In this document: positions 2,541 through 62,552 of the stretch, one piece after another
Layout: the number at the start of each line of letters is the position of its first letter
Numbering within the stretch: the first letter of the stretch is position 1
DNA from: Carallia brachiata
Taxonomy: Eukaryota > Streptophyta > Magnoliopsida > Malpighiales > Rhizophoraceae
NCBI GenBank assembly: GCA_021464245.1
Contig: JADCRB010000043.1
Coordinates: 1,969,735 to 2,033,734 of the forward strand
Length of the DNA stretch: 64,000 bases
Direction: 5' to 3'
Position numbers and translations under genes: made by a program
Notes under the pieces: generated by a model
What the model was told of the DNA's origin: nothing
The model's input: the letters and a program-made list of their open reading frames with translations, nothing else
The model's database searches: none

Positions 2541-3400
2541 ATGGTGAAATTAAGCCTGGCAGACATGATCATTTTTGCTGTAATGGCCACTTCCGCTGGA
2601 TGTGAGCAGGATTCGGATTGCCCCAACAACATGTGTTGTGCGGAATCAGATGAATGTGGTTACGGTCCAAAATTTTGTTGTCACCCCAGTTCTAATATCG
2701 GTATCAAAGGGTCTAGTGATGCTAATAATTTCCTGAATGCTACTCTCCGATCTTACAAAGCTGAGGAAAAACATTGGGACTTAAAGGCTGCCGACGTTTA
2801 TTGCTCGACATGGGATGCCGGCAAGCCATTGGCCTGGCGTAAGAAGTACGGTTGGGCTGCTTTTTGTGCAACCAATGGTCCAAAAGACCAAGAAGCTTGT
2901 GGCAAATGCTTGAAAGTAAGTGAAGACCTATATATGGAAAAAATTAGAGAGGAGTGGGAAATAGACGGATGGAAATGTGGCGTGAGAGAGGGAGAGGTGT
3001 GAGTCGTATGGAATTACACAATTTTTTTTTTTTAAAGAAACATGTGATGTCCATTTGGTTAAATAGGTTTATAGACAAAAAATGAAATGTGCATATAACT
3101 ATAAAAAAAATTGACTGCGTCTACATCCATGTAGCTGGACCTATATATATATATATATATATATATATGAATAGAAGATGCTTGTTATCTTTATCATTTT
3201 TATTTTTTTTTCCTTTTTTATAATAGGTGATAAATATCGCAACTGGATCTCATGACATAGTGAGAATTGTTGATAAATGCAACAACAAAAAAGGTTTGAA
3301 CTTGGATACTAAAGTATTTCAGAAGTTGGATACCAATAGACATGGCCAGTTGCTAAACTACCTTACTTTGAAGTATGAGATTGTGGATTGCAAGGATTGA
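2541..3400 (+). CDS. PR-4 / barwin-domain protein, copy 1 (intact)
   Basis: Two exons, 2541-2915 and 3227-3400, are joined by a phase-0 GT-AG intron and encode 182 residues. PR-4 proteins are secreted defence proteins; family members bind chitin and many have RNase activity. Residues 1-20 are hydrophobic and form a likely signal peptide. Residues 21-50 are Cys-rich (C21, C27, C32, C33, C39, C46, C47) and look like a shortened, rearranged hevein chitin-binding domain. Residues 62-182 are a full barwin domain, with YCSTWD, KPLAWRKKYGW, CGKCLK, RIVDKC and the final IVDC all present, giving the six barwin cysteines. AATAAA follows at 3455-3460. It is the head of a three-copy tandem array and the only copy without breaks. 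The odd hevein part suggests altered or lost chitin binding; that is inference. Confidence 0.9.
3142..3168. repeat. (TA)n microsatellite in PR-4 intron
   Basis: An uninterrupted TA dinucleotide run of about 13 units lies inside the single intron of PR-4 copy 1. Confidence 0.9.
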
Positions 3401-7128: not shown

Positions 7129-7986
7129 ATGAGAAAATCAGGCTATCCACAGCATTCTTTTTCTTCGTGGTAGGCGTAGCCGCTGCCATTGCATGTTACA
7201 TAGAGACGATTGCTCCGGTAGTTTATGCTGCGATGCACCGGCACCTGTAAGACGGATCAATCTGCTTGCGCACAATCCTTGTTACTGGTGACGTCGTCGT
7301 CGGAGACGGAAATAATACTAATTATGTGAAAGCTACTCTGCGTTCATTCAACGCCGACCAGAAAAATTGGGACTTGAAGGCTGCAAATTTTTATTGCTCC
7401 AAGTGGTATGCTGATAAGCCATTGGCTTGGCGAAAGAAGTACAGTTGGGCTGCCTTTTGTGCACCGAATGGTCCTAAGGACCAAGAAGCTTGTGGGAGAT
7501 GCTTAAAAGTAAGTCCCCATATGTACACCTTTTTTATTTTTTTTGGGTCTTAGTGGCCATCACGAGGAAGGGGATGGTAAAGAGGAGGATTACTTGGGCA
7601 TCGAATTCCATTTCTGTCAATTAAAAGTCTTAACTGCCAACCACCATACTTATGCAAGTCCTGATGTACATTTATATATAATGCTGATCTTAATATATAA
7701 TTGGCCACTATAAATGTGGAATAACATGTATTTGAGATGAGAATATTAGAAATAATTGTTGGATATATGAGGGATTTAAAATTTTATCTATTTATTATGT
7801 TGTAGGTGGTAAATGTTGGCAACTGGAGCTCGCGAAATACTGAGATTGTCGATAAATGTACCAATAAAGGAGGCTTGGAGTTGGACAGTGCAACATTTGA
7901 AAAATTGGACGGTACCGGACAAGGCAGCGTCAGGCTACCTTAATGTGAAGTACAAATTGGTGCATTGCAGGGATGAAGTACTCTGA
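7129..7986 (+). pseudogene. PR-4 / barwin pseudogene, copy 2
   Basis: The layout matches copy 1: exon 1 to 7508, GT-AG intron, exon 2 from 7806 to about 7986. The reading frame is broken several times. A missing base around codon 4 puts the signal peptide out of frame (the frame from the ATG stops after 14 codons). At least one more shift falls between the Cys-rich hevein-like stretch (DDCSGSLCCDAP) and the barwin domain. In exon 2 the frame ends early near 7942, whereas another frame carries the expected tail (YLNVKYKLVHCRD). The barwin core (YCSKWYADKPLAWRKKYSW) is well kept. Lesions sit in both exons, so more than one independent hit is needed. It is either a dead gene or, less likely, a set of sequencing indels. 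Confidence 0.82.
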
Positions 7987-10561: not shown

Positions 10562-11280
10562 ATGAGGAGGTTCAGGCTAGGCACAACATTCTTTTTCTTC
10601 ATGGCAACCATTGCCATTGCATATGCAGTATGGTACAGCGATGACTACTGCCCGGGCGAAGAATGCTGTAACAAGTATTGCCAATGTGTGCTAGATAAAT
10701 CTGTGTGAATGGAAAAATTTTTACCAGTGTCCTTGGAGGTGAAAATGATGCTAATTTATGTGAACGCTACTTTACATTCATTCAAGGCTCAGCAAAAACG
10801 ATGGGACTTGAAGGCTGCAAATGCTTATTGCTCGACTTGGGATGCCAATAAGCCATTGGCTTGGCGTAGGAAGTATAGTTGGGCGGCCTTTTGTGCGCCT
10901 AATGGTCGAAAGGTCCAAGAAGTCTGCGGTAAATGCTTGAAGGTAAAGTTTAGATCACTTAAGGCACTATTCTTAAAGTTATTTACGTATGCTCGTGTTA
11001 ATTATACGAGTAATAAGCAAGTCTTGTGTTCGAGAAAGAGTGACTAAAAATATTATTGGATATAACAGAGGGATTTTAATGTTTAATTTTGTTTTTTTAT
11101 GCATGTAGGTGACAAATGCTGCAAGTGGGGTTCATGAAAATAGTGAGAATTGTTGATAAATGCAGTAATAAGGAGGTTTGCGTTGCACAGTTTAGCATTT
11201 GGAAAATTGGATAGCAGTGGGCGAGGCAAATTACAAGGTAAACTTGTGGTGAAATAAGAATTTGTGGACTGCAAGATTGA
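10562..11280 (+). pseudogene. PR-4 / barwin pseudogene, copy 3
   Basis: Exon 1 runs 10562-10942 and exon 2 from 11109 to about 11280, with a GT-AG intron between. The first 48 codons encode an apparently good signal peptide (MRRFRLGTTFFFFMATIAIA) and a short Cys-rich piece, then hit an in-frame TGA at 10706-10708. The true frame of the following linker is shifted relative to the barwin frame (an extra T near 10757). The barwin core is preserved ([19 protein letters not shown]). Exon 2 is out of frame soon after its start, ending before the VDKC motif. A TGA plus indels in both exons make loss of function likely. The LTR retrotransposon sits only about 195 bases after its end. Confidence 0.82.
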
Positions 11281-12133
11281 AGTATTGCCAAGCAGAACCC
11301 ATTGTGATGATGACAGAAGAATTTATTCCCGAAATAAAAATTAAAGACAGTAATTACTATTCTCTGTGATAATGTTAACGGGGGCATGTCCTTGTTATCC
11401 CTTGCTATATGTATTTTGATCTTCTTTTTGAAATAATGATAATTAAACACAACTAATGCAAAGTTCAAGTGTCTCTGTAAAGCGTAAATTTCGAGCCTAA
11501 AACAATTAAACTCGAAAATACAAAAATAAATTACAAATAAAATTGTAAAGTAAAAGAAAATTTACGTGGGGTCGATCTCCGTAGATCCTCCGATTAGTGT
11601 TCCTTTTTTGACTCCGTCAAGGGCTGCACGAGCTTGATCCTGACAGAAATAATTTCCACTGCTTTTTCTTGAACTGGGTAGACTGAAACCGGATCTGATT
11701 TGGACGTTTTGACTACGGTTAAGAACCGCAGAGACCTGATCTGAGCCGATCTGGCTTAATTTCACCGAGGGTCGAAGAGACTTGTTCTCGGATGAGCTGC
11801 CTGGATTTTGCTGAGGGCCGTATGAGGCTTAATCCCAGCCGGATTTGTAGTAATTTGATATTTTTAACTCTATATTCTCAGAAATTCAGATCTAGAACGA
11901 TCCAAGAATATAAATTTAAAAATAACTTTAGAAATGGAAACAGCAAATTTTTTGGGCTTTACCCCTGAAATATCTCTCAAAACGGAGTTAGGAGAGTATA
12001 CTGCTAAGTAAAAGCACGTAAGAAAAGGAGAAATTTTCTTGAGAGATTTTCAAAATTTTCTTTTTCTCTCAAATTCTCTGAATTTTTCTGTTTACAGATT
12101 TGCTGAATGTGTTTTGAACTGAGGGGCATGGGC

Positions 12134-12143
12134 CTATTTATAG
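12134..12143 (-). promoter_or_regulatory. LTR TATA box (3' LTR copy)
   Basis: On the minus strand this reads CTATAAATAG, immediately downstream of the U3 tandem repeats. It is the expected pol II promoter position of an LTR, with the same sequence at 21874-21883 in the 5' LTR. Confidence 0.8.
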
Positions 12144-12157
12144 GGTTTCCCCTCTCG

Positions 12158-12355
12158 TGTGAAAGCACGCGTGTGAAAGGCATAAGTCGACTTTTCCGTG
12201 TGAAAGGCATAAGTCGACTTTTCCGTGTGAAAGCACGCGTGAGAAAGGAATAAGTCGACTTTTCTGACTTTTCCGTGTGAAAGCATGCGTGAGAAAGGAA
12301 TAAGTCGACTTTTCCGTGTGAAAGCACACATGCGAAAGGAATAAGTCGACTATTG
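12158..12355. repeat. U3 tandem repeats of about 35-40 bp
   Basis: Roughly five degenerate units built from GTGTGAAAGCACGCGTG, GAAAGGAATAAGTCGAC and TTTTCC, each carrying a GTCGAC palindrome. They lie in the U3 part of the LTR directly upstream of the TATA box, so they are plausible enhancer repeats. The same array is at about 21898-22095. Confidence 0.85.
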
Positions 12356-12424
12356 ACTTTTTTTTTTTTTTTCTTTTTTTTTTTCTTCTTCTTCTTTTTT
12401 TTTTTTTTTTTTTTAATGTTTACA

Positions 12425-12440
12425 AATGCCCCCACTTCAG
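12425..12440 (-). other. Putative polypurine tract
   Basis: The minus strand reads CTGAAGTGGGGGCATT directly before the 3' LTR, the position and G-rich composition expected for the plus-strand primer of reverse transcription. Confidence 0.6.
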
Positions 12441-12786
12441 GGGTCGGTAAGGAAGAACTTTGCAGACGTGATCCGCACCGAGTCTTGAAGTCCAGTTTGA
12501 AACTTGGAAACGTCCTGATGAACATTGAATCTTGGAGTCTTCTATCTTTGACCATGCTTGCTGTTGTTGGATCACAATAGGAACCCGATACGATCTTGAG
12601 AAAGTTAGCACCCCAGCCAATATAAAAATTGATATTCTGGTTCCAGGTGCGTTCGAGCTTCCATAGCCCGCAAAGGATTTTTTATATCTCTTAAAGTTCC
12701 AGAGCTCTGGTGAGGATGATCCAGTAGGCAAAGAACTTCAACCTCCCCAAGAGAAAGGCTCAGGACCTTGGAACTTCAAGACCGGC

Positions 12787-13089
12787 TCACAGAGAGACTG
12801 ACTGTAGTGATGATTTCCAAGTCTGCTTCGACGTAAGGAGAGTAGTTGGAACTTCCCTGTACGTCGCTGCATCCAAAGAAAGATTAGGATAATTGCAGCT
12901 TCTCATCCCTCTGTGGTAGATGTGAACTAAGGAGAGTAGTTGGAACTCCATGACACCGATGGCGTTGGAGATTGAGTTTCGAGGGCTTTTAGGGATCCCT
13001 CGAAGAAGACTACTCCTTCTTTTCTTAGCTCGTGCGCCTCCAACTTCTTGATCGAAGAACTTCCTGAGACAAGTGTAGAGACTAGCCAT
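12787..13089 (-). CDS. Accessory ORF 2 of the retrotransposon, unknown function
   Basis: A 100-codon ORF starting at the ATG at 13089 and ending at 12787. I do not recognise it. The N-terminal third is basic (KKRR near residues 24-27) with Ser-rich flanks; there is no signal peptide or membrane segment. A TATA-like GTATATATATCC lies at 13142-13153 on the same strand, about 55-60 bases before the ATG, a spacing that fits an independent promoter. The C-terminal part contains a 21-base direct repeat (AAGGAGAGTAGTTGGAACT on the plus strand, about 12834 and 12928), so part of the ORF is an internal duplication. It lies between the WOX-like ORF and the 3' LTR in the same orientation. It could be chance; longer ORFs overlap it in other frames but start inside low-complexity sequence. 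Confidence 0.35.
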   Translation of the reverse strand: MASLYTCLRKFFDQEVGGARAKKRRSSLLRGIPKSPRNSISNAIGVMEFQLLSLVHIYHRGMRSCNYPNLSLDAATYREVPTTLLTSKQTWKSSLQSVSL

Positions 13090-13141
13090 TTTCTTTTGAG
13101 AAAGAAGAGCTGAGGGGTGAATATTACAACTCGGGCACGCA

Positions 13142-13153
13142 GGATATATATAC
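13142..13153 (-). promoter_or_regulatory. TATA-like box before accessory ORF 2
   Basis: GTATATATATCC on the minus strand, immediately downstream of the A tract that follows the WOX-like ORF. Confidence 0.4.
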
Positions 13154-13162
13154 AAATAATAA

Positions 13163-13166
<4 letters not shown>

Positions 13167-13198
<32 letters not shown>
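13167..13198 (-). repeat. Poly(A) tract (minus strand) behind the WOX-like ORF
   Basis: 32 consecutive T on the plus strand, i.e. an A tract about 190 bases downstream of the WOX-like stop codon. It could be the fossil poly(A) tail of a captured cDNA, or a simple homopolymer of the kind found elsewhere in this element. Confidence 0.6.
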
Positions 13199-13199
<1 letters not shown>

Positions 13200-13294
13200 A
13201 AAAGTCAAAAAAAGGTATGCAGAATCGGATAGGGCCATCCACGTCCCTTTCCTGCATAAGAGACAAAAGAGGCAGCGGCTGACGCGTGTCACGA

Positions 13295-13371
13295 AAGTCG
13301 TTACCGTGTGTGGCAGAAGTCGTTGCCGTGTGCTGCGGAAGTCGTTGCCGCGTGCTGCAGAAGTCGTTGCA
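13295..13371. repeat. 22-bp minisatellite
   Basis: About 3.5 copies of a 22-bp unit beginning AAGTCGTTGCCGTGTGCTGC on the plus strand, with small differences between units. It lies between the WOX-like stop codon and the A tract. Confidence 0.85.
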
Positions 13372-13390
13372 CCTTATCTTGTCGGCCGTC

Positions 13391-14014
13391 CTAGCGGGGC
13401 CCGAGGTGCAACTCCAAGTCAAGCTCGACCTCGTCCGGTGGGCCGATGATGTTGATGTCAACGTCGACGTCGCTTTCCGGCTGGTTGATGCTGCCGGAAT
13501 ATTCTGGAAAGAGAGGCAAAGTTTCGCCGGAATGACTCCTTTCTGCTAGAAAATGTCCTCCTAGACTTAAGTACCTAGAAGGGATGAACCCTTGGCTGAC
13601 TCCGTAAGACCACCAGGACCAGCGTGCATGCTCCCATGGGCTACGGCTTTGATGAACATACCGTGGAGAGACTATTGCGGTGGAAGAACTCGGACCTGCT
13701 TCATTTGACGGCGAAGTTGTACTGGTGGGATCTACCATCGGAACAGCAGACTGTTCTTTGGAAAAATCAGCTCTCAGTGCTGGTTTCTTCCTGCTTCTCC
13801 GATTCTGGAACCAATAAAACACATTTTTTCCTTCGATTGCCCCGAGTGGGCGCAATCGTGAGACAAGTTGGTAAATCTGAGATGCATTAGGCATAATACC
13901 TCCATTGTTGTGGAAGACTTCCTCTAGAATTTGCAGTTGCGCCATGGTTGGTTGCCACCTTGTGCGGGGTGACCTTTCTTCTCCCTTGTCTTGAGGTTCT
14001 GCAACTGGTTTCAT
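13391..14014 (-). CDS. WUSCHEL-related homeobox (WOX)-like protein inside the retrotransposon
   Basis: An intact, intronless ORF of 207 codons from the ATG at 14014; the frame is open upstream to 14137, but this ATG is preferred because a TATA box lies about 90 bases before it and WOX homeodomains are usually near the N terminus. Residues 16-80 form a homeodomain: helix 1 WQPTMAQLQILEEVF, helix 2 NASQIYQLVSRLR, the WOX signature IEGKNVFYWFQN, and NRRSRKK with the canonical Trp, Phe, Asn and Arg of the recognition helix. Residues 164-170 are ETLPLFP, matching the WUS-box (TLxLFP). Residues 180-187 are acidic, and residues 198-204 (LDLELHL) are an EAR-type repressor motif. WUS-type proteins are nuclear transcription factors controlling stem cells. 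The three modules in WUS order make chance similarity very unlikely. It lies between integrase and 3' LTR, in sense with gag-pol. An alternative is a retrogene inserted into the element. Confidence 0.88.
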   Translation of the reverse strand: MKPVAEPQDKGEERSPRTRWQPTMAQLQILEEVFHNNGGIMPNASQIYQLVSRLRPLGAIEGKNVFYWFQNRRSRKKPALRADFSKEQSAVPMVDPTSTTSPSNEAGPSSSTAIVSPRYVHQSRSPWEHARWSWWSYGVSQGFIPSRYLSLGGHFLAERSHSGETLPLFPEYSGSINQPESDVDVDINIIGPPDEVELDLELHLGPR

Positions 14015-14100
14015 CTTTCTGTGGTAGAGGAGCAAAGGTTTGGTGTGTGGTGAAGATCGATTGAGACTGATGCTGAGTTTCAGACTCAAACCCTCCGTCG

Positions 14101-14112
14101 CTTTTATATTTT
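14101..14112 (-). promoter_or_regulatory. TATA box before the WOX-like ORF
   Basis: The minus strand reads AAATATAAAAG, about 90 bases before the ATG at 14014. This would give a short 5' UTR and suggests transcription independent of the LTR. Confidence 0.55.
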
Positions 14113-14185
14113 TGGGCCGTTCACAGTTTATACTCATGCGGGCCAGGAGTTGGATTGGATTTTGAACCTGGTTTCTGGACTGTGT

Positions 14186-14400
14186 TTAGAACTTGGAATT
14201 TTTTGGGTTTTGGGCTTTGAATTGAATTTGGGTTGATTTGGATTTGGGTTTTTGGATCGAATGTTTGGGTTTGGACTTTTGGATTTGGATTGAGTGTTTG
14301 GGTTTTGGACTTAGTTTTTGTGTTTTCTGAATTGGGCTCAAGTGTTTGGGTTTGGATTTTTGGGTTTGGATTTTCGCTTGGACTTTCAGATCGGGACTTC
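14186..14400. repeat. G/T-rich simple repeat (TTTGGGTTTGGA-like)
   Basis: About 200 bases built from TTTGGGTTTGGA and TTTTTGGGTTTGG variants on the plus strand. It resembles a degenerate telomere-type repeat but has no TTTAGGG units. It separates the pol end and A-rich tract from the WOX-like ORF and encodes only low-complexity shadow ORFs. Confidence 0.8.
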
Positions 14401-14407
14401 CGAACTT

Positions 14408-14578
14408 TTTTTTTTTTTTTTTTTGATTTTTTTTTTTTTCTTCTCTTCTTTTTTTTTTGATTTTTTTTTTATTTTTTGATTTTTTTTTCTCTTCTTTTTT
14501 TTTTTTTTTTTTTGATTTTTTTTCTTCTCTTCTTTTTTTTTTTGATTTTTTTTTTTTTGATTTTTTTTTTTCAAACAT
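14408..14578. repeat. A-rich tract behind pol (minus strand)
   Basis: Almost pure T with scattered GA and CTTC on the plus strand. It begins three bases after the integrase-frame stop codon. Lys-rich ORFs across it are artefacts. Confidence 0.85.
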
Positions 14579-14580
14579 AT

Positions 14581-15998
14581 TTACACATAATATTGTTTCA
14601 GAAATTTACCATTGATTGGGCCGATTCGGACGCCTTCTTGGTCTGACAGCATGTAAGCGTTGTGAGTGTAGGCCTCCTGCACTAAGTATGGCCCGTCCCA
14701 TTTGGAAGTAAGCTTGTCACCAGGCCGATGCTTCATGTTGATGGGCCGTCGCACTGCAAGAACAAGATCCCCAACTTGAAAAGATCGAAGACGGACCCTG
14801 CGGTTGAACGTGTGGTGAGCCGGGCTTGGTAGCACTCAAGTTGCTGTTGTGCTTCGAGCCTCCTTTCATCGAGAGCTTCTAACTCATCCAGACGTAGGCG
14901 AGCATTCTCCTCCTGTGTGAGTCCTTCCAGAACAGCCATGCGCAGGGATGGAATCTGTGTTTCCAACGGCAGTATTGCTTCGACACCGTAGACAAGTGAG
15001 TATGGCGTCGCCTGTGTTGGAGTCCGGTAAGTTGTACGATACGCCCATAATGCCTCCGGAATTCTGTCATGCCAATCTCTTTTGGATTTAGAGACTACCT
15101 TTCGCAACAGGTTGCATAAGGTCTTGTTGAATGCTTCAGCCAAGCCATTTGCTGGGGCATTGTACATGGATGACTTGTACTGCTTGAACTTGAATTTCTC
15201 GCAGAGCTTGTCAATTAAGCTGTTATAGAACTGCTTACCATTATCAGTGATGATGAATCGAGGGACTCCATAGCGATAGATCAGCTGAGTCCGGATGAAA
15301 TTGGCAACATGCTCCTTCTTTACCTCTCTAAGTGGAATGGCTTCAGCCCATTTTGAGAAGTAATCGGTTGCTGCGAGGATGTACAGGTGACCTAGGGATG
15401 ACTTTGGCAAGGGCCCCACTAAGTCGAGACCCCAAGCTTCAAAGGGCCAGGATGAGACAGTTGGATGCAGTGGCTCCGGTGGTTGATGTATGTAATTCGC
15501 ATGAAATTGACAAGCTTGACAGGTTTTAGCAAACTCAATTGAATCACGTACCATAGTTGGCCAGTAGTATCCCATCCTTCTAAGTTGGAAGTGCAACTTA
15601 GGCCCTGATTGATGTCCGCCACAAACACCAGAATGTGCTTCAGTGAGAGCCTGTTTTGCCTCTTCATTGGCTAGGCAGCGAAGTAGAACTCCATCAAAAG
15701 ACCTTCGATACAGAGCATCCTTGAGATATATGAAGGGGAGCTCGTCGTTGAATTTCTGTCTTATGACGACGATCTTCGGGCAGCTTCCCGTTTGTAGGTA
15801 AGTCAATGATTGGTTGACGCCAGTCCTCGTCCTCCGCGAGACGTACAGAACAATGTTGGCTGCTGTATTTTCTTCCATCATCCTTTGTGGCACTATCCTT
15901 TCTGGCATACGGCACAACTGTACTGGATTTCTGACTTTGCAAGAGAAGTGGCCAGGTTTAGCCAACGCGTCTGCCTGAGTTTTTCCGTCGAGGCACAT
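14581..15998 (-). pseudogene. Integrase region of the Tat-like element
   Basis: The frame from 15998 to about 14733 contains the H-H-C-C zinc-binding region (CQACQ) and the catalytic core: WGLDLVGPLP (first Asp), FIITDNGKQF (second Asp) and a Glu in GLAEAFNKTL, then WAYRTTYRTPTQATPYSLVYG. Near 14820 the frame shifts and the C-terminal part (VGDLVLAVRRP, KLTSKWDGPYLV, ending KQYYV at 14581) continues in the frame of 14835-14581. Integrase inserts the cDNA into the genome. There is no chromodomain, which fits the Tat/Athila side of Ty3/gypsy. One frameshift separates core from C terminus; otherwise it is well kept. Confidence 0.88.
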
Positions 15999-16029
15999 GC
16001 TCCAAGGTGATGCTTTTCAAATTCATCCA

Positions 16030-17115
16030 TTAGCTGTCGAGCAAGTTGATGGTAAGGGCAAGGTCCTCTTTCTTCACATACAACTGTAAGTTGGTTGATG
16101 ACGAGCTGGAATCTCCATGGACTTCTATAGTTGGAATCTTCATATCGACAGCCATTTGAAGACCAATGATCAAAGCCTGGTATTCAGCAACATTATTTGA
16201 ACATAACTCACCGAGTATGATAGCATATGGTAGTATTTGTCGCTGAGGAGTGACAAACACTATACCGGCACCAGCACCATCACGCCTTGCTGCACCATCA
16301 AAGAACATCGTCCATGGTGGCAGTGTCTCAATGTAAAAGACCTCTTCATCTGGAAGATCATCTGTGAACTCCCAATCGGATGGGATAGGGTGATCTGCAA
16401 GGAAGTCTGCTAGAGCTTGTCCTTTGACTGCTTTTTGAGGCATAGACATGTCGTAGCTTGTAGGATTACTGCCCACTTGGCAAGTCGTCCTGACAAGATT
16501 GGTCTAGATAAGATATTTGACAGGATCAGCTCTGGCAATGAGACGTACCGTGTGAGCTGCATGTAGTGCCTTAGCTTGTCAATGGCAAAGAACAGTGCTA
16601 GACATGTCTTTTCAATGGGCGAATAACTCAGTTCCGGACCGTTTAGTGTTCTGCTCAAGTAATACAGGGCAACTTCCTTTCCCTGCTCGTTTCCTGTGCA
16701 AGCAAGGCTCCCAAAGATCTTTCCTGCGCTGCAATGTAGAGAATCAACGACTTTCCTTGAATTGGAGCTCCCAGGACTGGTGGATTGGAAAGGTACTTCT
16801 TTATGCTCTCAAAGGCTTTGCTGCAAGCTTCGTCCCACTCGAAGTTGACATCCTTCTTCATCAACCGATGGAAAGGTTGACATCTACCAGCTAAATTGGA
16901 GATGAAACGGCGAATGTAGCCAGCTTTCCTTGTAGACTTCGCAGCTCGTGCAGGTTTTTAGGTTCAGGCATCTTTTGAATTGCCTCAACCTTTGACTGAT
17001 CAACTTCGATTCCACGATGGCGCACCACGAACCCAAGAAACTTTCCTGATGTGACACCGAATGCGCACTTGAGAGGGTTCATTTTGAGCTGATGCCTCCG
17101 AAGTCTTTCGAACAC
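16030..17115 (-). pseudogene. RT C-terminal end, RNase H and second (archaeal-type) RNase H
   Basis: Fragments in several frames follow one another without large gaps: RT thumb (QLKMNPLKCAFGVTSGKFLGF, 17115-16891), connection/RNase H (FEWDEACSKAFESIKKYL and LSYSPIEKTCLALFFAIDKLRHYM, 16864-16410), then ALADFLADHPIP and an extra RNase H (MFFDGAARRDGAGAGIV with catalytic Asp, NVAEYQALIIGLQMA with Glu, VHGDS with Asp; 16476-16030). The second RNase H is the mark of Tat elements. At least three frameshifts lie between the fragments. RNase H removes RNA from the RNA:DNA hybrid. Confidence 0.85.
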
Positions 17116-19879
17116 TGTCTTGAGATCCTCGAGGTGGTCTTTGCGCTTCTTAGTCTTTACAACTAAGTCATCAACATAACATCTTTGGGGTGCGGAATGC
17201 TGTCAACTCCTCGTCTTCTGGTGCCATTCTGATTTGGTTATAGCCTGAAGAACCATCCATGAAAGACAATGCTTCGTGACCCGTTGTTGCATCGACTGTG
17301 ATCTCCGTTATGGGCAACGGAAAGTCATCTTTCGGGCAGGCCTTGTTAAGATCTCGAAAATCAACACATACCCTCAACTGTCCATTCTTCTTTCTTACCG
17401 GGACAATGTTGGCAATCCACGTTGGGTAGGTGACCTCTCGGATGAAGCCGGCATTGATCAGCTTGTTCACCTCCTCCTCGATTTGTGGAATGAGTTCCGG
17501 GCGGAACCGTCGTTGTGGCTGCTTGACAGAACGGACACTCTTCTTTACTGCTAGACGATGCACCGCAATTTTTGGGTCAAGTCCAGGCATTTCTTTGTAA
17601 CTCCATGCGAACACGTCCCTGTATTGACTTAATACCTGAACATATTCCTGCTCTTCTTCTACAGTAAGTAAAGCACTTACAAATGTAGGTCGAGGATCTT
17701 CCGGAGAGCCAAGATTGACCTCCTTGAGTTCATCAACAGTTGCTTGGCCACCGTCTTCAAGTTCCGGGGGAGCCTCCTTCACTTCACCATCTGATGAGTC
17801 AGAATCAGCCTCCTCGCTAATTGTGACATGAAATGCAGAACCTCTGACTTCACCTTCTTCGTTTGACTGGATAAGCCTGTCCTGTTTGGTAGTGGTGGTG
17901 ATGGCACGTGCATCAGCTGCTTGGCTTCGGCTCTTTAGCGTGATCCGCACAGGTGACTTCTCCTGATAGCCTAAGCCAGGTCGGGACTGTGATGTTTGAG
18001 AAGCGGCGCCATGTGTGGACGGCAGCGTACCCATTGTGCTCGGGTTTGAAAAGTCATAGCCCGCCTTTGCCAAAAGCTTGTATGCATTAGGATCAAATCC
18101 TTCATGTGTTCTTCTTTCTGGAAGTGAGCCGCCTTCGACTGCCCCCGTGTGTGGTTTGACGAAGCCTTTTAATGGTTTTGAAGATAAAACCGGCTCAATC
18201 TTTGGTATCGGCAGAGTGTAAGTCTCCTTCAGGTTGTGCAGCTCCTTTGTTTTGGGTTGGCTATGACCTTGCTCCTGTTTAAGATCAATACAATAAGAGA
18301 AAGGGGGTTGACCTTCTGACGTGACTAGGCACATAGCGTAGGACTGGAGTGGAGCTTGAAGATGCAACATCCTTCGAACGAAGTTCAGCAGGCTGTGGCA
18401 GCTTTTCATTTGTTGGAGCCTGGGGTTGGGCATTGGCAGGTTCTTCGACAGCTTTTCCCTTTTTGTGGATGCCCCAGTCCAAGTAGCTTTTGATGGAATG
18501 ATCTCCGGATTGTCTGTGTCGGTGTAGAAGACTGCATCCGCCAAATGTGATTCAGCATCATCGAACGGCTTTAAGTCAGCATTGACCTTTTGAACGCCAC
18601 CATTGTAGTACTTGAAGCACTGATGCAGGCTTGAGAGCACAACTCCATTTCCATGAATCCATGGTCGTCCTAGCAACATCTTATATGTGGTACGTGCATC
18701 AATCACGTGAAATAGAGTGCTAGAAGTGAGATTACCGATAGTTAGCTCCAAGCGAATCATCCCAATTGCTTTCTGTCCTCCTTGATTAAAGCCATGAATC
18801 ATCAAGCGGCTGTCTGATAATTCATCAATGCCGATGCCGAGCTCCTTTATGGTGGATTTTGGGATAATATTGACTGCTGAACCATCGTCGATCAGAATAC
18901 GTCGGACCTTCTGTTCTCTCACATAGCCTGATACATACAGCGGCCGATTGTGGGGTTTGGACCCCAGTAGGAGATCCTCATCTGAAAATGAGATGGCAGA
19001 GTAATATCCGACGTGATTTCGGTCCGCCTGTTGCTCCGCTGAGTTAGACTCATTTGATGGCTGTGATTCAGCTGAGGTCTGGAGAGTATTGCTGACTTGA
19101 TTTTGCCACACTTCTGTTGATTGCAAAGCTATAAACAGCTGAGGGTTAGCGAGAAGGGTTTGAAGAGCTTCATATACCTTCTCCGTTGTCAACTTTTTGT
19201 TGTCGAGCGGCTCCTCCTTACGATGTGTCACCTCTTCTGATGGTTTTGAAGTGATGGTGGTTTGGTTTGCCGAGGTTACGCCTTCCTGGTCCAGAATGAT
19301 TTTATTCTGGCTTTTGAGCTTCATGATTAGCTCCTTTAGGACGAAACATTTCTCGGTTGGATGACTTACTATCCGGTGATATTTGCAGAATCTCGGATCG
19401 CTGACTCGATCCTTTTCATTCGGCCGCTTGCACTCTGGGAGTTCGATCAGCTTCGCCTCCAGGAGTTGGTCAAGGATGTCGGGGACGTCTGAGTCGGGGA
19501 ATGGATACTGCTTCTGCTCCAACTCTCGCAATGTCACCTTCCGCCTTTCCTGTTGTTTTGGCTGAGTTATTTGGGTCGGAGGATTTACCTTGGCTTTAGC
19601 TCCCACTTTTACTGGTGCGGCTTCAACAGTCATCACTTCTTTCCCTTTTCCGGAGCTGTTGGGTTTCTTAATCTCCCTTCTGCCCCCTTGCTGGTCCAAC
19701 TGGATGGGAACCGTGCCTCCGGAAGTCTGGATGCTTATCTCCATATCATGTGCGCGGGTCGCCAATTCTTCGAAGGTTCGGGGTTTGACACCCTGCAGGA
19801 TGTATAACAGCTCCCAATGCATTCCTTGGATGCACATCTCCACGGCAGAAGTCTCCGTCAGGCGATCTTTGCAGTCCAA
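17116..19879 (-). pseudogene. gag C terminus, protease and reverse transcriptase (RT core deleted)
   Basis: A 902-codon open frame (to 17171) holds the rest of gag, including a Cys/His cluster (CKYHRIVSHPTEKC), an aspartic protease (LIDDGSAVNIIP, active-site Asp near 18885, then MLLGRPWIH) and RT motifs VRKKNGQLRVCVDFRDLNK, CPKDDFPLP and MDGSSGYNQI. At FRTPK the frame runs into a stop because about 35 codons normally present between FRTPKG and YVDD (including the MPFGLKNA region) are missing. The catalytic YVDDLVVK is directly downstream in another frame (about 17155-17140). The RT is therefore non-functional as read. Confidence 0.88.
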
Positions 19880-20934
19880 GCTGAGGGCACGCCATCTGTT
19901 GATGTATTCGACAACGGGCTCTCCTTTCTTTGTTTGGTGCTGGTAAGCTCCATCATACTTACCGTCCTTCGAGTGCTGAAAAATCTATTGAGGAACTCTC
20001 GTTGTAGCTGTTCCCAACTGTCGATCGATTCTGGTTCAAGATTTATGAACCAGGTGAAAGCGGTCTCCCTGAGTGAACGAACAAACTGTTTCACCAAGAG
20101 ATCTCCGTAAGTCCCTGCGTTGTTGCAGGTTTCAACGAAGTGGGCGATGTGCTGTTTGGGATCGCCTCGTCCGTCGAATTGTTGAAATTTGGGCGGTTGG
20201 TAGCCCAAGGGCATGTTGAGACTTTCGATCCGTCTGGTGTACGGTTTGACGTACATCTGTGATCCTTGGAAGGATGTAGCTTGTTGCAGTCGGATCGTAT
20301 TGGCTATCATTTCCTGCAATTGTTGAACAGATAGCGAAGCTATAGAATTTGAGGGTGGCAGCTGTGTAGAACTACCTGGTCGCTTTTCTGCAGGGAAGAC
20401 GTCGGCTGGTGTGGCTTCTGGAGTGAAACCGGGTGGATATGGTTGCTCCTCGCGGATTTCGGGATCAACTTGGATCGGGCTTTTTCCTTTGAGAGCTGCG
20501 ATCTGTTGATCTTTTTCCTCCACGACTCTGATCAGCTGTAAAATTTTGTTTTCCAATTCTGAAATTCTTTCCTCTGTGCTGGTTGTGTTGGTCATCATGA
20601 CGGCAACAGATGAGGCTCCGGGAAAGACTGGGGGAGAAAACTCTTCTGATTCTTCTGTGTGAGTCGGATTTTGTTGAGCAGGCTTCGTCGTGTTGCCCCC
20701 GATTTCGATCGGGGTGGGTGATCGACTCCTCCATGCGGCAAGAGAGTCAGGGGAGAGATCCTGTTGTGCAAGCTGTGGACTCTCCATTTCGACATTTTGT
20801 CGGGTTTGGACGGCAAGAAATTGTGTCCGTCCCCGGGTTTCTGGACCTGCGTACCCAGGTAGGGTAGTTGATGCAGGCAATGGAGCCGTTGCCTTCTTTT
20901 TTGTGGCAGCAGTTGTACTCCTTTTCGGTGCCAT
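19858..20934 (-). pseudogene. gag of the Tat-like element
   Basis: 358 codons from the ATG at 20934. Residues 1-100 are basic and low complexity. A coiled-coil-like segment (ERISELENKILQLIRVVEEKDQQIAALKG) follows, then a retrotransposon gag core (MPLGYQPPKFQQFDGRGDPKQHIAHF, FVRSLRETAFTWFINLEPESIDSWEQLQREFL). After TSTKQRK a one-base loss near 19935 in an A run shifts the frame; the continuation (LDCKDRLTETSAVEMCIQGM) is in the next ORF. Before that loss gag, protease and RT would have been one continuous ORF. Gag forms the virus-like particle. Confidence 0.87.
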
Positions 20935-20953
20935 TTGATGTGCTGAACACCTG

Positions 20954-21165
20954 TAAAAATTTTTTTTTTTTTTTTTTTTACTTTTTTTTTTTTTTTACCT
21001 TTTTTTTTACTTTTTTACTTTTTACTTTTTACTTTTTACTTTTTTTTTTACTTTTTACTTTTTACCTTTTTTTTTTTTTTTACTTTTTTTTTGTCTCTTT
21101 TTTTTTTGTCTTTTTTTTTTCTCTCTCGGCTCCCCTTTTACCTCTTTTTTTTTTTTTTTTTTTAA
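20954..21165. repeat. A-rich leader tract between PBS and gag
   Basis: Plus-strand T tracts punctuated by TTTTTAC units. In element orientation this is an A-rich 5' leader. Low complexity, no coding. Confidence 0.8.
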
Positions 21166-21190
21166 GAAACAAGAGATGGGAGGTGAAGAT

Positions 21191-21208
21191 GTCCCACCGA
21201 GCGTGCCA
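21191..21208 (-). other. Putative primer-binding site
   Basis: On the minus strand, six bases after the end of the 5' LTR, the sequence begins TGGCACGCTCGGTGGGAC. The leading TGG would pair with a tRNA CCA end. I cannot assign the tRNA with certainty. Confidence 0.6.
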
Positions 21209-21214
21209 AAAATT

Positions 21215-22161
21215 TGTAAAGCGTAAATTTCGAGCCTAAAACAATTAAACTCGAAAATACAAAAATAAATTACAAATAAAAATTTAAAAATAAAAGAAAA
21301 TTTACGTGGGGTCGATCTCCGTAGATCCTCCGATTAGTGTTCCTTTTTTGACTCCGTCAAGGGCTGCACGAGCTTGATCTTGACAGAAATAAATTCCACA
21401 GATTTTTCTTGAACTAGGTAGACTGAAACCGGATCTGATTTGGACGTTTTGACTACGGTTAAGAACCGTAGAGACCAGATCTGAGCCGATCTGACTTAAT
21501 TTCACCGAGATCGAAGAGACTTGTTCTCGGATGAGCTGCCTGGATTTTGCTGAGGGCCGTATGAGGCTTAATCCCAGCCGGATTTGTAGTAATTTGATAT
21601 TTTTAACTCTATATTCTCAGAAATTCAGATCTAGAACGATCCAAGAATATAAATTTAAAAATAACTTTAGAAATGGAAACAGCAAATTTTTTGGGCCTTA
21701 CCCCTGAAATATCTCTCAAAACGGAGTTAGGAGAGTATACTGCTAAGTAAAAGCACACGTAAGAAAAGGAGAAATTTTCTTGAGAGATTTTCAAAATTTT
21801 CTTTTTCTCTCAAATTCTCTGAATTTTTCTGTTTACAGATTTGCTGAATTGTTTTGAACTGAGGGGCATGGGCCTATTTATAGGGTTTCCCCTCTCGTGT
21901 GAAAGCACGCGTGTGAAAGGCATAAGTCGACTTTTCCGTGTGAAAGGCATAAGTCGACTTTTCCGTGTGAAAGCACGCGTGAGAAAGGAATAAGTCGACT
22001 TTTCTGACTTTTCCGTGTGAAAGCATGCGTGAGAAAGGAATAAGTCGACTTTTCCGTGTGAAAGCACACATGCGAAAGGAATAAGTCGACTATTGACTTT
22101 TTTTTTTTTTTCTTTTTTTTTTTTCTTCTTCTCTTTTTTTTTTTTTTTTTTAATGTTTACA
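21215..22161 (-). repeat. 5' LTR of the Tat-like element
   Basis: 947 bases, TGTAAA...TTTACA, near identical to 11476-12424, with U3 repeats at about 21898-22095 and a TATA box at 21874-21883 (CTATAAATAG on the minus strand). Immediately outside it is a run of T and no copy of GTCTC, so no target-site duplication is seen. Confidence 0.93.
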
Positions 22162-58799: not shown

Positions 58800-60645
58800 T
58801 GGCAGCGCACAAAGCACAGATATTCTAATATAGAAGATGTTGTTGTTGAGATTCAAATTGAGTTAATGTTATGAGAAACACCCCAATCACCAATCAAGCT
58901 ACTATTTTAGGTAGTATCAAAATTTTAATTTTAATTTTAATTTTATGAAAAAAAGTATAACTGTATAAGGTTGATTAATATAGAAATTACTAATATCATC
59001 AAACAACTCAGCAAAGAGATAAATAAAAGGAAAATTCTTAGAAAGAGACAAAACATGTTGACTAGGTCCCATCTCGAGAACGACAATAGCAAAGATGAAA
59101 GATTCTCGTATTTGGCCTCAGCGTGTGCTACCCGGCGGTGGATAGCCAGAAGTCTAGGTCGTCCCTTTCCATTGGGGACAAAACAGGGTTTTCCATTGCC
59201 ATTTCCCCGAACCAACCATCCAATTCCAAGACTTTTTGTATTGCTGTGTCATATCGGCAAAATTTTTTCGTCATTAAATTAAGAATACCGCTAGCTGTCA
59301 CTTTTCTGAACAATATGATAGTTGATATACAATTTATTTATTAATTTTTATTTTTTTAAAATTTAATTATTAAATAATTCATATTACTATATTTTAATCT
59401 CATCTAGGAGATCTCATCTAGTATTTCCCTTAATTTAATTTAATTAATTCACATATTTAAACTTCAGAAAAATGAAATTTAGAATAAGAATTTACAAATA
59501 TTAATTCAAGGTGACATTTAACAGAATAAATATTACTAAAAAAGTTTGAAATCATCCTAATTAAATTCAATTCAAATCATTTGCATAGGATAATAATAAT
59601 AACTCTATACTTCAATAATCATCGGCCTTGTAATTTTTAGCATCAATATATATCTTTTTAAATTAAGTCAGTTCGTCACAATTTGAGTGATTTGGACGTT
59701 TATTACTACATTGCAAATGATTTAAAACCATATTTCTCATTTCTCATATATCCTATCTGACAATGACGTAATTCCTGTTTGATTAATAAGCAATAAATTC
59801 TTACCTTTGTTGTTCTTTCATTTGATCAAATTGAAGAAATTTAAACAAAAACTTTTTCTTTAATTATTGATTGAAATTCGACAGTTTCATATATTATATG
59901 CAGAAAAGTCCATCTTGTGGAATATAATCTTGTACCAAATTCAGCAATTTCTTTTATTTTATATATAAAGTTAAGAGATAAGAGGAACATCCCGACTTAA
60001 GACTATGGAGCATTTACATACCACTAAAGATTAACATAAGAATTTGCACGTCACTTATTCACAAAGAACTCAAATATCAGCTAGTAAAATTCGAATTCAA
60101 AATAAAATACATCTAGAGTTGAATTATTAAACATTGACCTAACTCTTATAGACTCATATCTCTAAATTGTAGCAGCTGCCATTCCACAACAATCTCATAT
60201 TCTTCGTTATACACCTAGAAAACTTTTTTTGAGACTGAGAGAGAATAAAATAGAAGAATAGCCTACACTTAGCCATAGATAGAGAACAATAACAGTTGTA
60301 GTTTTTTTGGGCTCTTTGGCATCTACAAAGAGACCTACAAGATTATCTTCACATGGAGAGAAATCTTCAACTAGATAACTCTGGCCCTGATCCTCCCTCT
60401 GTCATTCATCTTCCTAGCCCACATCAAGGTTTCCAATCTTTTTGTTTCCAAGATCAGGCACGCCGAAGTCCAGCTAGACAACACTCGAGCCGACACGGCT
60501 AGGTACGAGAAACTAACCGACGTTGCCAAATCCAAACGAGCCTATTTCTGGCTCTTTAAGGCTGCCTACTTCACTTTTTTCCTTATCTTATCCCTTCTAT
60601 CAACTACGGTCGTTGTCTACACCATCATTTGTATTTACACGCCAA
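58800..60645. repeat. Left arm of a large inverted duplication
   Basis: Reverse-complement similarity to 61360-64000 (after removing the inserted LTR). Anchor blocks: 58855-58920 with 63890-63960, 59050-59280 with 63560-63775, 59560-59720 with 63110-63260, 60130-60340 with 62480-62700, and 60350-60645 with 61360-62450. Arms are about 1.8 kb with a spacer of about 0.7 kb. Confidence 0.88.
60273..60645 (+). pseudogene. 5' fragment of a plant multi-pass membrane-protein gene (left arm)
   Basis: Same gene as the minus-strand copy at 60753-62552. The start codon is changed to ATA (60275) and stops occur at the beginning (around 60288) and at TTCAACTAG. Then an open stretch reads ITLALILPLSFIFLAHIKVS, RHAEVQLDNTRADTARYEKL and FWLFKAAYFTFFLILSLLST before the homology ends at about 60645. 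Truncated at the inversion junction. The family, known in Arabidopsis as uncharacterised transmembrane proteins, has no established biochemical function. Confidence 0.78.
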
Positions 60646-60752: not shown

Positions 60753-62552
60753 TTATAACTGGACATCTTTGGACTTCAAAAGAGTGTATTCTCCCAAAAG
60801 ATAAACTTCGAGCCGACTTGTCGATATTTTCATGGTGGTATGATTTGCAAATGAGGTAGAGGACCGTCTAGATAACAAGCTGAAACAAGAACAATGTGAC
60901 AAGCAACAAAAAATAGATAAACCCAAATGCCAATCTATTAAAAACGCCAAGCGAAACCCCATGAACCACCAGCTTTTGAAATATTATCTATATTGCTGCA
61001 GAGGACATACTTAACTTTAAAAATATGATTACTACAATGCACGTCTTGCCTCTTATCAGTGCTCGAGTCTTGGTCATGGCCTTAAATCCAAATGCTTCCT
61101 CTAATATTGACACGACGCTGCTTAATTGCCAAACTATGCTCATGTACACAAATTCGAGAATGTAAGCCACCAAAACAGCGAACAAAGTTGGAATAGCTGC
61201 CTTGGTTTGTGAAAATAGTAATGCACAAGATATTAGGACAAGCGCAACAACAAAGTTGTGTGTGAAAATAGCAAGAAAGATAGCCAAGAAGGTGACCATG
61301 AGTCTCTTCTAGACTTTTGGAACGATGTTTATAACCTTCTTGAAGCTGACTTCCTTGCCGGTATAAATCCAGGCAATGGTCTAGACAACGGCCGCAGTTG
61401 ACAGGAGGGAGAAAATAAGGAATAAAGTGAAGTAGGCAACCTTAAAGAGCCAGAAATAGGCTCGTTCGGATTCGACAACGTCGGTTAGTTTTCATACTGT
61501 TAGGAAATATAAGTAAAATTAACAGAAAATGGATGCAAATAAAATAAATAAAGGATATGAAATATTATTTGAGGCGTGCAAGGCATTATCCTTAAGGATA
61601 ATTTTCGCCCTCGTACTCAAATCAAGTCAGTGCAGCAGGTCACAGCAGCTACCCTCCCAAGATACAATAGACTTTCTCACTAATGTGCACTTCAAATAGT
61701 GAGGTAATAGAAACAACTCTAATCTTGATTAACCCAGCAAAATGTAACAAAGAGGTATGTGCAGGAAGAAGAGTATCTAAAAGGATGATATTTTCCTAGA
61801 GAAGAAGGAGATACATATATACTGGTTCAGCCTTTAAAGTTCATAAAAATGAATAATGACCACAAAGATGAATAATGGACAGAATAATGATGATTAAATG
61901 ACTGTAATTGCTGCAACGACTACTTTTCAACAGTCAAAAACAGTTAGTTTGACCGAAAAGTTTGAAAAATCAAAAAAATATTGGTTTTAGGGTGTAGACC
62001 GGCTAAGGCCGGTTCACTGCGTAGGGTCGTATGAGCCCGCTCCTATCGGACCTGAGACTAAGTTGCACAAGACCTCTTATAGGTCTTTTATTTTGTGAAA
62101 ATGTAAGATACATATTGATTTATAAACATGTGGTACATAATATTTTTATTCCATGTGGGATTCTAATATCTATATATATACTTTTTTCCTGAGTAGCACT
62201 TAACTTTTTTTTTCCTATGTGGGATTTAAGTCTTCTTATAGACTTTTTTATTAAATACTAATTGGCTTCTCTTTCCTATGTAGGATTCAAGCTTTTTAAA
62301 ATATCCTTTATTCTTTCAACAAATATCTGCCCGTGCCAGCTTGAGTGTTGTCTAGCTGTACTTCGGCATGTTTGATCTTAGAAACAAAAAAATTGGAAAC
62401 CTCGATGTAGGCTAGGAAGATGAAAGGCAGAGGAGGATCAGGGCCAGAATTATCTGGCTGAAGATCTTTCTCCACATGAAGATGATCTTGTAGGGCTCTT
62501 TGTATATGCCAAAGAGCCCAAGAAACTATATATTTTCTTGTTCTCTATCCAT
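60753..62552 (-). pseudogene. Plant multi-pass membrane-protein pseudogene, split by a solo LTR
   Basis: Reads from the ATG at 62552: MDREQENI, stop, FLGLFGIYKEPYKIIFMWRK, IFSQIILALIL, a frameshift, PFIFLAYIEVSNFFVSKIKH, AEVQLDNTQAGTGR. An 824-base LTR (61498-62321) interrupts it. It resumes KLTDVVESERAYFWLFKVAY, FTLFLIFSLLSTAAVV, stop (TAG), TIAWIYTGKEVSFKKVINIV, PKV, stop, KRLMVTFLAIFLAIF, and on to LEVYLLGEYTLLKSKDVQL ending at 60753. Several hydrophobic segments fit a multi-pass membrane protein of the Arabidopsis At2g18690-like type (family assignment from memory of the motifs). No intron is seen. Multiple stops, frameshifts and the LTR make it dead. Confidence 0.8.

Follow-up and report, generated by a model that had tools for sequence, protein, structure and literature searches.

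A WUSCHEL-like homeobox gene carried as cargo by a high-copy Ty3/gypsy retrotransposon family of Carallia brachiata

Long terminal repeat (LTR) retrotransposons normally carry only the genes needed for their own copying. The Tat elements Retand, Grande and RIRE2 are described as holding an extra open reading frame (ORF) between pol and the 3′ LTR (PMC7264820, PMC11963269). Conserved extra ORFs are antisense or env-like and mostly without known function (PMC7264820, PMC11963269); those conserved in Tat elements are antisense and encode TRP28 or no known domain, and a Retand survey reports no sense ORF with a known domain (PMC11963269). The accessory gene of Grande reportedly has a promoter of its own, from which it is transcribed, and a nuclear protein product (PMC11963269). 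Host-derived domains can also be fixed as extra ORFs, as in orchid elements that carry an AlkB N6-methyladenosine demethylase and whose reverse transcriptase (RT) falls within Tat (PMC9289625). In a screen of 121 angiosperm genomes, 15 extra domains passed the filter, including B3 in Aegilops and the LONELY GUY-type YgdH in Citrus; the homeodomain is not named among them in the available text, and the word "homeobox" is absent from that main text, supplements excepted (PMC9289625). LTR elements of rice, sorghum and maize have captured genes inside full-length elements, and the main text of that survey contains neither "homeobox" nor "WUSCHEL" (PMC3726574). The present analysis concerns a stretch of 64,000 nucleotides from Carallia brachiata (Rhizophoraceae; assembly GCA_021464245.1, contig JADCRB010000043.1, positions 1,969,735 to 2,033,734), called the window below. 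In it a 10.7-kb Ty3/gypsy element (window 11476-22161, minus strand) carries as cargo a WUSCHEL-related homeobox (WOX) gene, most likely derived from WUSCHEL (WUS) itself.

Dual RNase H marks Tat elements (PMC9289625, PMC9040795), and because both a Ty3-type (PF17917/PF17919) and an RVT_3-type (PF13456) RNase H are present, the domain content points to a Tat-type carrier. The place of the cargo gene, between integrase and 3′ LTR, is that of the Tat extra ORFs, and its promoter and predicted nuclear product recall the Grande accessory gene. Unlike the conserved Tat ORFs, however, the cargo is a transcription factor gene in sense orientation. Whereas the corresponding region of Retand measures 2.9-6.6 kb and holds an antisense TRP28 ORF (PMC11963269), it spans only ~2.2 kb here (12425-14580), and the frame list shows no plus-strand ORF of at least 120 residues in it, shorter ones not having been scanned for TRP28; the element does not qualify as a Retand. 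The orchid AlkB protein is an enzyme acting on RNA (PMC9289625), whereas the cargo described here is a DNA-binding protein by its domain. The cereal captures comprise any annotated gene within a full-length element (PMC3726574). No element with WOX cargo was found in open-licence full texts, among the matches listed; the original prediction likewise knew of no described element with such a cargo. Captured host domains fixed in elements were known already, orchid AlkB being the best example.

Read from its first ATG, the cargo ORF spans 248 open codons (13391-14137, minus strand, like all parts of the element given below; frame list). Its likely product is shorter, with 207 codons, a start at ATG 14014 and the stop at 13391, because a TATA box (TATAAAAG, 14101-14108, ~87 nt 5′ of ATG 14014) lies between the two ATGs and because indels in the leader of other copies shift the upstream frame while ATG 14014 is kept. 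Free of introns, this ORF (13391-14014) encodes a homeodomain with the WUS-specific insertion at residue 54 (13769-13963), a WUS-box (ETLPLFPE, 13502-13525) and a C-terminal EAR-type motif (LDLELHL, 13403-13423), in the order in which they occur in WUS. The homeodomain matches Pfam PF00046 (E=2.9e-12), and the ORF matches the solved WUSCHEL homeodomain 6ry3 (E=3.8e-18); NCBIfam profiles gave no match to the ORF, and a scan of viral contigs found no relatives of it. Of 200,000 shuffles of the residues after the homeodomain, two produced TLPLFP, 551 produced LxLxL within the last 15 residues, and none produced both motifs together. AlphaFold2 models the homeodomain confidently (predicted local distance difference test score ~94) and the remainder of the protein with low confidence; the predicted fold most closely matches DNA-bound WUS homeodomains, and STENOFOLIA matches it almost as well. 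The original prediction of an intronless, sense, 207-codon ORF between integrase and 3′ LTR is confirmed by the frame list and the element map, and that of a WOX homeodomain, WUS-box (ETLPLFP) and EAR motif in WUS order by PF00046, 6ry3 and the reading of the motifs. The predicted TATA box of its own is likewise present, unchanged in 68 of 70 copies including that of the window. Soon 3′ of the stop codon lie 22-bp tandem repeats (13295-13370; repeat scan), followed ~190 nt past the stop by a 32-nt A tract (13167-13198; repeat scan and sequence), which may be left over from a poly(A) tail or may belong to the A tracts of the element itself.

The gene is found far beyond the window. Counts were made in the assembly that holds it (337.5 Mb in 164 contigs) with a 27-base homeodomain tag and a WUS-box tag, allowing up to three mismatches; these occur 837 and 891 times, respectively, and the reversed control patterns 0 times. 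A protein search with the cargo ORF gave 2,954 loose candidates, 150 of which were scored, all at E<=2.3e-119 and with 78-100% identity to the ORF; in-frame stops occur in 44 of the 150 and are absent from the other 106 (hand count). Among 50 copies fetched with their flanks (L001-L050, the window copy being L002), the integrase C-terminus lies upstream and a second small ORF downstream in all 50, and in 49 an LTR follows, in the same part order and inside the stretch fetched, the exception being L018. Twenty copies reached beyond the LTR, and the 18 usable host flanks include no two alike. Given the tag counts, the constant order of parts and the differing flanks, the cargo ORF is shared, as a part of the element, among independently inserted members of a high-copy family. 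Thus, the expectation that several elements with independent sites share the ORF held true, and its confinement to a single element, which had been named as the outcome that would overturn the proposal, does not hold.

Short features of the gene persist across these copies. Of the 70 copies, 19 were aligned, and 18 of these retain ATG 14014, while the leader between TATA box and ATG carries several indels. The protein starts with MEP in 37 of the 70 copies and MKP in 26, with 7 unmatched by the pattern; TLPLFP is kept in 58 and LDLEL in 68 of 69 other copies. Identity to the window copy over 49 copies is 99.7% in the homeodomain, 99.6% in the TATA region, 99.1% in the integrase C-terminus and 96.8% in the upstream promoter, values that overstate the conservation of the ORF, since the copies fetched were those that scored highest for it. 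The WOX ORF is open in 47 of the 49, and at least 250 integrase residues are open in one frame in 22, a weak comparison, as the WOX ORF was the basis for choosing the copies and integrase is cut short in some of the fetched stretches. One further element copy, L080 (G000:C16:749555-749914), has a recognition helix two residues longer, FQNRERESRKK for FQNRRSRKK, in a homeodomain whose frame is otherwise open.

Two host WUS loci were found (L071 and L072), together with seven other host WOX homeodomains (L073-L079), which we take, by resemblance, to be WOX1 to WOX5. In both WUS loci one open stretch holds the homeodomain and another the WUS-box, with 13 in-frame stops between them in L072 and a change of frame in L071; these stretches are apparently exons of a host WUS with introns. 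Because the host homeodomain and WUS-box are split whereas the element ORF runs through, the cargo was probably captured from a spliced transcript. Of the earlier claim that the element had captured a WOX cDNA, capture by an LTR retrotransposon is thus supported, and the spliced source is probable in view of the split host exons. The source is most likely WUS itself, as indicated by the insertion at residue 54, the MEP start of many copies and the EAR motif. Within the WOX family this insertion is reported in WUS only (PMC7203112); it is present in the cargo and in both host WUS loci and in none of the seven other host WOX homeodomains, and in three element copies residue 54 is Tyr, as in WUS. 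Host WUS proteins start with MEPQ or MDPQ. A WUS-box with a C-terminal EAR motif is the WUS/WOX5 combination (PMC6788696), and the best 120 of 412 public protein matches all have a WUS-length homeodomain and TLPLFP. The cargo shares with the host WUS loci and 6ry3 the residue-54 insertion, the base-reading residues, WUS-box, EAR and, in many copies, the MEP start.

Unlike WUS, the cargo has a homeodomain of only ~50% identity, no introns, a length of 207 residues, no acidic excess, and the residues R36, H54, R91, S93 and A101. None of the WUS homeodomains of the best 120 matches exceeds 53% identity to that of the cargo, and among themselves they share at least 73%. Relative to these 120 WUS-type proteins, the cargo keeps 25 of 34 WUS-invariant columns and 1 of 9 columns that are less than 90% conserved. 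Of the residues that contact bases in WUS-DNA structures, R38, Q89, N90 and R94 are kept; in the 69 other copies R38 is retained in 68, Q89 in 65, N90 in 68 and R94 in 67, and I66 in all 69. Two of the departures were previously made by mutation in Arabidopsis WUS: S36R raised affinity for TAAT ~6-fold and left that for TGAA similar, and F101A weakened binding ~3-fold and gave a mostly monomeric protein (PMC7203112). Among the 69 other copies, 67 have R36 and 57 have A101. No acidic stretch precedes the WUS-box, where the net count is 0; the median of the 120 WUS-type proteins is +8.

Selection on the cargo was assessed from the ratio of nonsynonymous to synonymous change (dN/dS). Between subfamilies the net ratio for the homeodomain is 0.09, 0.09, 0.29, 0.30 and 0.43 in five comparisons, which are not independent; in a sixth, the groups hardly differ there. 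As the counting method is biased by transitions, a neutral simulation was run with the LTR spectrum, a transition/transversion ratio of 1.67 and several CpG weights; it gave homeodomain medians of 0.72-0.76 with 1% quantiles of 0.22-0.27, and medians of 0.57-0.74 for the rest of the ORF. Since two of the five values fall under the 1% quantile, constraint on the homeodomain between subfamilies is supported. The mismatch at the three codon positions of the homeodomain (0.045/0.026/0.058) agrees with such constraint, and the second small ORF differs in this respect (0.044/0.050/0.040). A stronger case for longer-term constraint is that the ORF is open despite the loss of ~40% or more of its residues: in simulations of 1,000 runs each, with substitutions only, an unconstrained ORF at ~52-58% amino-acid identity stays open in less than 1%. 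As a separate observation, L057, L064 and L065 differ from L001 and others by a net synonymous divergence of ~0.44 in the homeodomain and 0.12 after it, which suggests mosaic copies made by template switching between element lineages.

Several results weigh against a WUS-derived gene maintained for its protein. Close copies (dS<0.02) show a ratio of nonsynonymous to synonymous differences (pN/pS) of ~1.3 among 69 copies, and deeper pairs a whole-ORF ratio of ~0.54, only slightly under neutral medians of 0.61-0.72. Of the five homeodomain values, three exceed the simulated 1% quantile, those for the rest of the protein beyond the homeodomain are 0.58-0.81 between subfamilies, inside the neutral range, and one whole-ORF comparison reaches 1.08, apparently through the N-terminus. 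To these are added the selection of fetched copies by ORF score mentioned above, the lack of enrichment of TTAATGG, TGAATGA or TCACGTGA sites in the LTR (motif test), the fact that some WUS proteins likewise lack an acidic excess (lowest value -3), and homeodomain identities of 49-55% to WUS and 49-50% to WOX1, which give no separation. One rival reading is a passive passenger, a WUS copy captured once and amplified along with the element, its protein idle and its intactness a sign of recent amplification. Close-copy ratios near or above 1, the in-frame stops in 44 of 150 copies, constraint detectable in the homeodomain only, an LTR without WUS-type motif enrichment and a second small ORF that is equally widespread with no codon-position signature all favour such a passenger. 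It nevertheless appears quite unlikely, as it leaves unexplained the open frame that fewer than 1% of simulations retain, the changes that avoid WUS-invariant columns (25/34 against 1/9 kept), homeodomain ratios of 0.09-0.43 between subfamilies, and a TATA box and start codon that persist while the leader between them takes indels. A high ratio in close pairs with a lower one in deep pairs is the pattern of genes that decay after insertion and are constrained while transmitted. The original prediction had counted dN/dS near 1 with frequent stops as evidence against it; the ratio is near or above 1 in close copies, and constraint between subfamilies is supported for the homeodomain only. The protein might instead act in cis, regulating the element's own LTR or internal promoter rather than host genes, and self-regulation has been proposed for retroviral antisense proteins and Retand extra proteins (PMC11963269). 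The 386 bp before the cargo ATG (14015-14400) hold 8 copies of TGAA, the core that WUS prefers, versus 2.2 in local shuffles, a 3.6-fold excess in one of 27 motif-region tests, and autoregulation by a WUS-type homeodomain is only a lead. In the LTR, however, TGAA is in weak excess (15 versus 9.9 expected), and neither the 5′ LTR nor the post-integrase region contains TTAATGG, TGAATGA or TCACGTGA (motif test); a cis role is judged unlikely. CGCGTG is frequent in the LTR because it lies within the LTR tandem repeats.

An origin from another WOX clade, either the intermediate WOX8/9/11/12 group or WOX1-5, with convergence on WUS, has to be set against derivation from WUS. The cargo signature reads NVFYWFQNR, which is the intermediate-clade form, rather than the modern-clade NVFYWFQNH (PMC6788696), and for this reason the gene is named WUS-derived and not a WUS orthologue. 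Its WUS-box follows the rule TLxLFP, and its EAR motif, LDLELH, fits the generic LDLEL and departs from the exact WUS form L[DE]L[ST]LN (PMC6788696). In a large homeodomain tree (72 different WUS rows, STENOFOLIA and the cargo) the cargo branch has a length of 5.1 versus a median of 0.013, which makes its placement unsure. In a small tree of seven element rows, nine rows of host WOX and six drawn from the 120 public WUS, with no intermediate-clade rows, the element rows fall outside the host WOX rows and the two host WUS homeodomains group with Hydrobryum (Podostemaceae) among the six public WUS rows (87/93); a clade of WUS and element is not the best tree (p-AU, approximately unbiased test, 0.33) and is neither confirmed nor rejected. 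Signature and trees would suit another clade, but the WUS-only insertion at residue 54, shared with both host WUS and with none of seven other host WOX, Tyr at that position in three copies, the WUS/WOX5 combination of motifs, the WUS-length homeodomain and TLPLFP in all of the best 120 of 412 matches, and the absence of the intermediate-clade motifs VFIN and LQxG (motif search) render it very unlikely. A private nested retrogene, a WOX retrocopy inserted by chance into one element, might be read from a single window, where the A tract past the ORF could be a retrocopy tail; with 837 and 891 tag matches, the same order in 49 of 50 copies and 18 unrelated flanks, it is ruled out as extremely improbable.

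The carrier element in the window has the domain order gag-protease-RT-RNase H-integrase of Ty3/gypsy, with Pfam matches in separate pieces and protease below cut-off. Its 5′ LTR (21215-22161, 947 bp, with tandem repeats of 27-50 bp) and 3′ LTR (11476-12424, 949 bp), delimited by self-alignment and reading of the ends, are 97.7% identical and have TG...CA ends. Just inside the 5′ LTR lies a putative primer-binding-site-like stretch (21191-21208). A first open stretch of gag (19858-20994; Retrotrans_gag PF03732, E=2.8e-7) is followed in another frame by the remaining gag, protease and the first RT part (17171-19984; RVT_1 E=1.2e-7), where aspartyl protease matches stay below the Pfam cut-offs. 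The last RT part (16891-17202) covers RVT_1 profile positions 151-204 (E=5.5e-11), the Ty3-type RNase H extends across two frames (16410-16957; PF17917 E=1e-12, PF17919), and the second RNase H, of RVT_3 type, lies at 16030-16503 (PF13456 E=1.4e-9). Integrase (14581-16016) includes the zinc-binding part, core and C-terminal SH3-like part (PF17921, PF00665; PF24626 sub-cut-off) and changes frame near its end; an A-rich tract (14405-14572; repeat scan) separates it from the cargo gene. A polypurine tract (GAAGTGGGGGCATT, 12425-12438) borders the 3′ LTR. The gag-pol region of this copy is spread over several shifted frames, and RT profile positions 99-150 are unmatched between the two RT pieces (1-98 and 151-204), consistent with the earlier claim of frameshifts and deletions in gag-pol beside an open WOX ORF. 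LTR divergence (Kimura two-parameter distance 0.0172), at 1.3e-8 to 2.5e-9 substitutions per site and year, would date the insertion of this copy to 0.7-3.4 million years ago. A target-site duplication was not found at the window copy, the only one to which this refers (AAAAA versus GAGAC).

The second small ORF, 3′ of the cargo ORF in each of the 50 fetched copies, lies at 12787-13090 and has a TATA-like stretch and a AAAATGGC start. It encodes 100 residues with a basic stretch, AKKRRSS, and has no Pfam match. Its status as a selected gene is not supported by its codon positions, which give no signature; perhaps it has a promoter or RNA function rather than encoding a protein. Elsewhere in the window, three diverged direct copies occur at 2723-2921, 7316-7514 and 10750-10948 (76-81% identical to the first), the first within a Barwin-domain ORF (2541-3002) and the third just before the carrier element. 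An inverted repeat of 1.7 kb with 81% identity occupies 58806-60498 and 62331-63989. The best named matches of a neighbouring pentatricopeptide repeat (PPR) gene are from Erythroxylum, Mercurialis, Dovyalis and Ricinus (61-65%), and two other sequences reach 67%.

The preferred reading, which we hold to be reasonably probable, is that a Tat-type family captured spliced WUSCHEL and keeps it as TATA-driven cargo encoding a repressor that acts in trans, a function proposed from sequence. A spliced WUSCHEL transcript would have been captured between the integrase and the 3′ LTR of a Tat-type Ty3/gypsy family, and the gene retained with its own TATA promoter during amplification to several hundred copies. 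Transcription would start at the internal TATA box and not solely in the LTR, and the 207-residue protein would enter the nucleus, bind WUS-type sites through R38, Q89, N90 and R94, and recruit TOPLESS-type co-repressors through its EAR motif and WUS-box. In WUS-type proteins the EAR motif is an interaction site for TOPLESS co-repressors (PMC6788696), and the WUS-box has been called essential for WUS function (PMC9781121). Because the acidic region is gone and R36 and A101 replace S36 and F101, the protein is predicted to bind as a monomer, to accept TAAT besides TGAA, and only to repress. In shoot stem cells with active WUS, it may be a competitor of host WUS or a repressor of some WUS targets, and expression or transmission of the element would gain from this; a benefit to the element in these cells is plausible. 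WUS is said to trigger antiviral immunity in stem cells, according to a 2020 paper in Science. That a repression-only WUS made in stem cells competes with host WUS on its targets and so loosens the WUS-dependent antiviral state and the reinforced transposon silencing in the cells founding the germ line seems unlikely.

The germ line is founded by descendants of shoot stem cells, a new insertion of a plant element is expected to need passage through these cells for its inheritance, and whether stem cells act as a bottleneck that limits transposon spread has been named an open question (PMC7560203). A family that carries a reshaped WUS at several hundred copies makes this question directly testable. 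Its 69 aligned copies also provide a natural series of variants of the WUS homeodomain at positions earlier probed by mutation, and they indicate that a regulator tightly constrained in its hosts can be remodelled once inside a mobile element. LONELY GUY acts in cytokinin regulation, so that its capture by other elements would add another function related to meristems, a pattern that merits attention. If the loosening of stem-cell defences is true, the family would represent a transposon that acts on the stem-cell switch of its host to secure its own inheritance.

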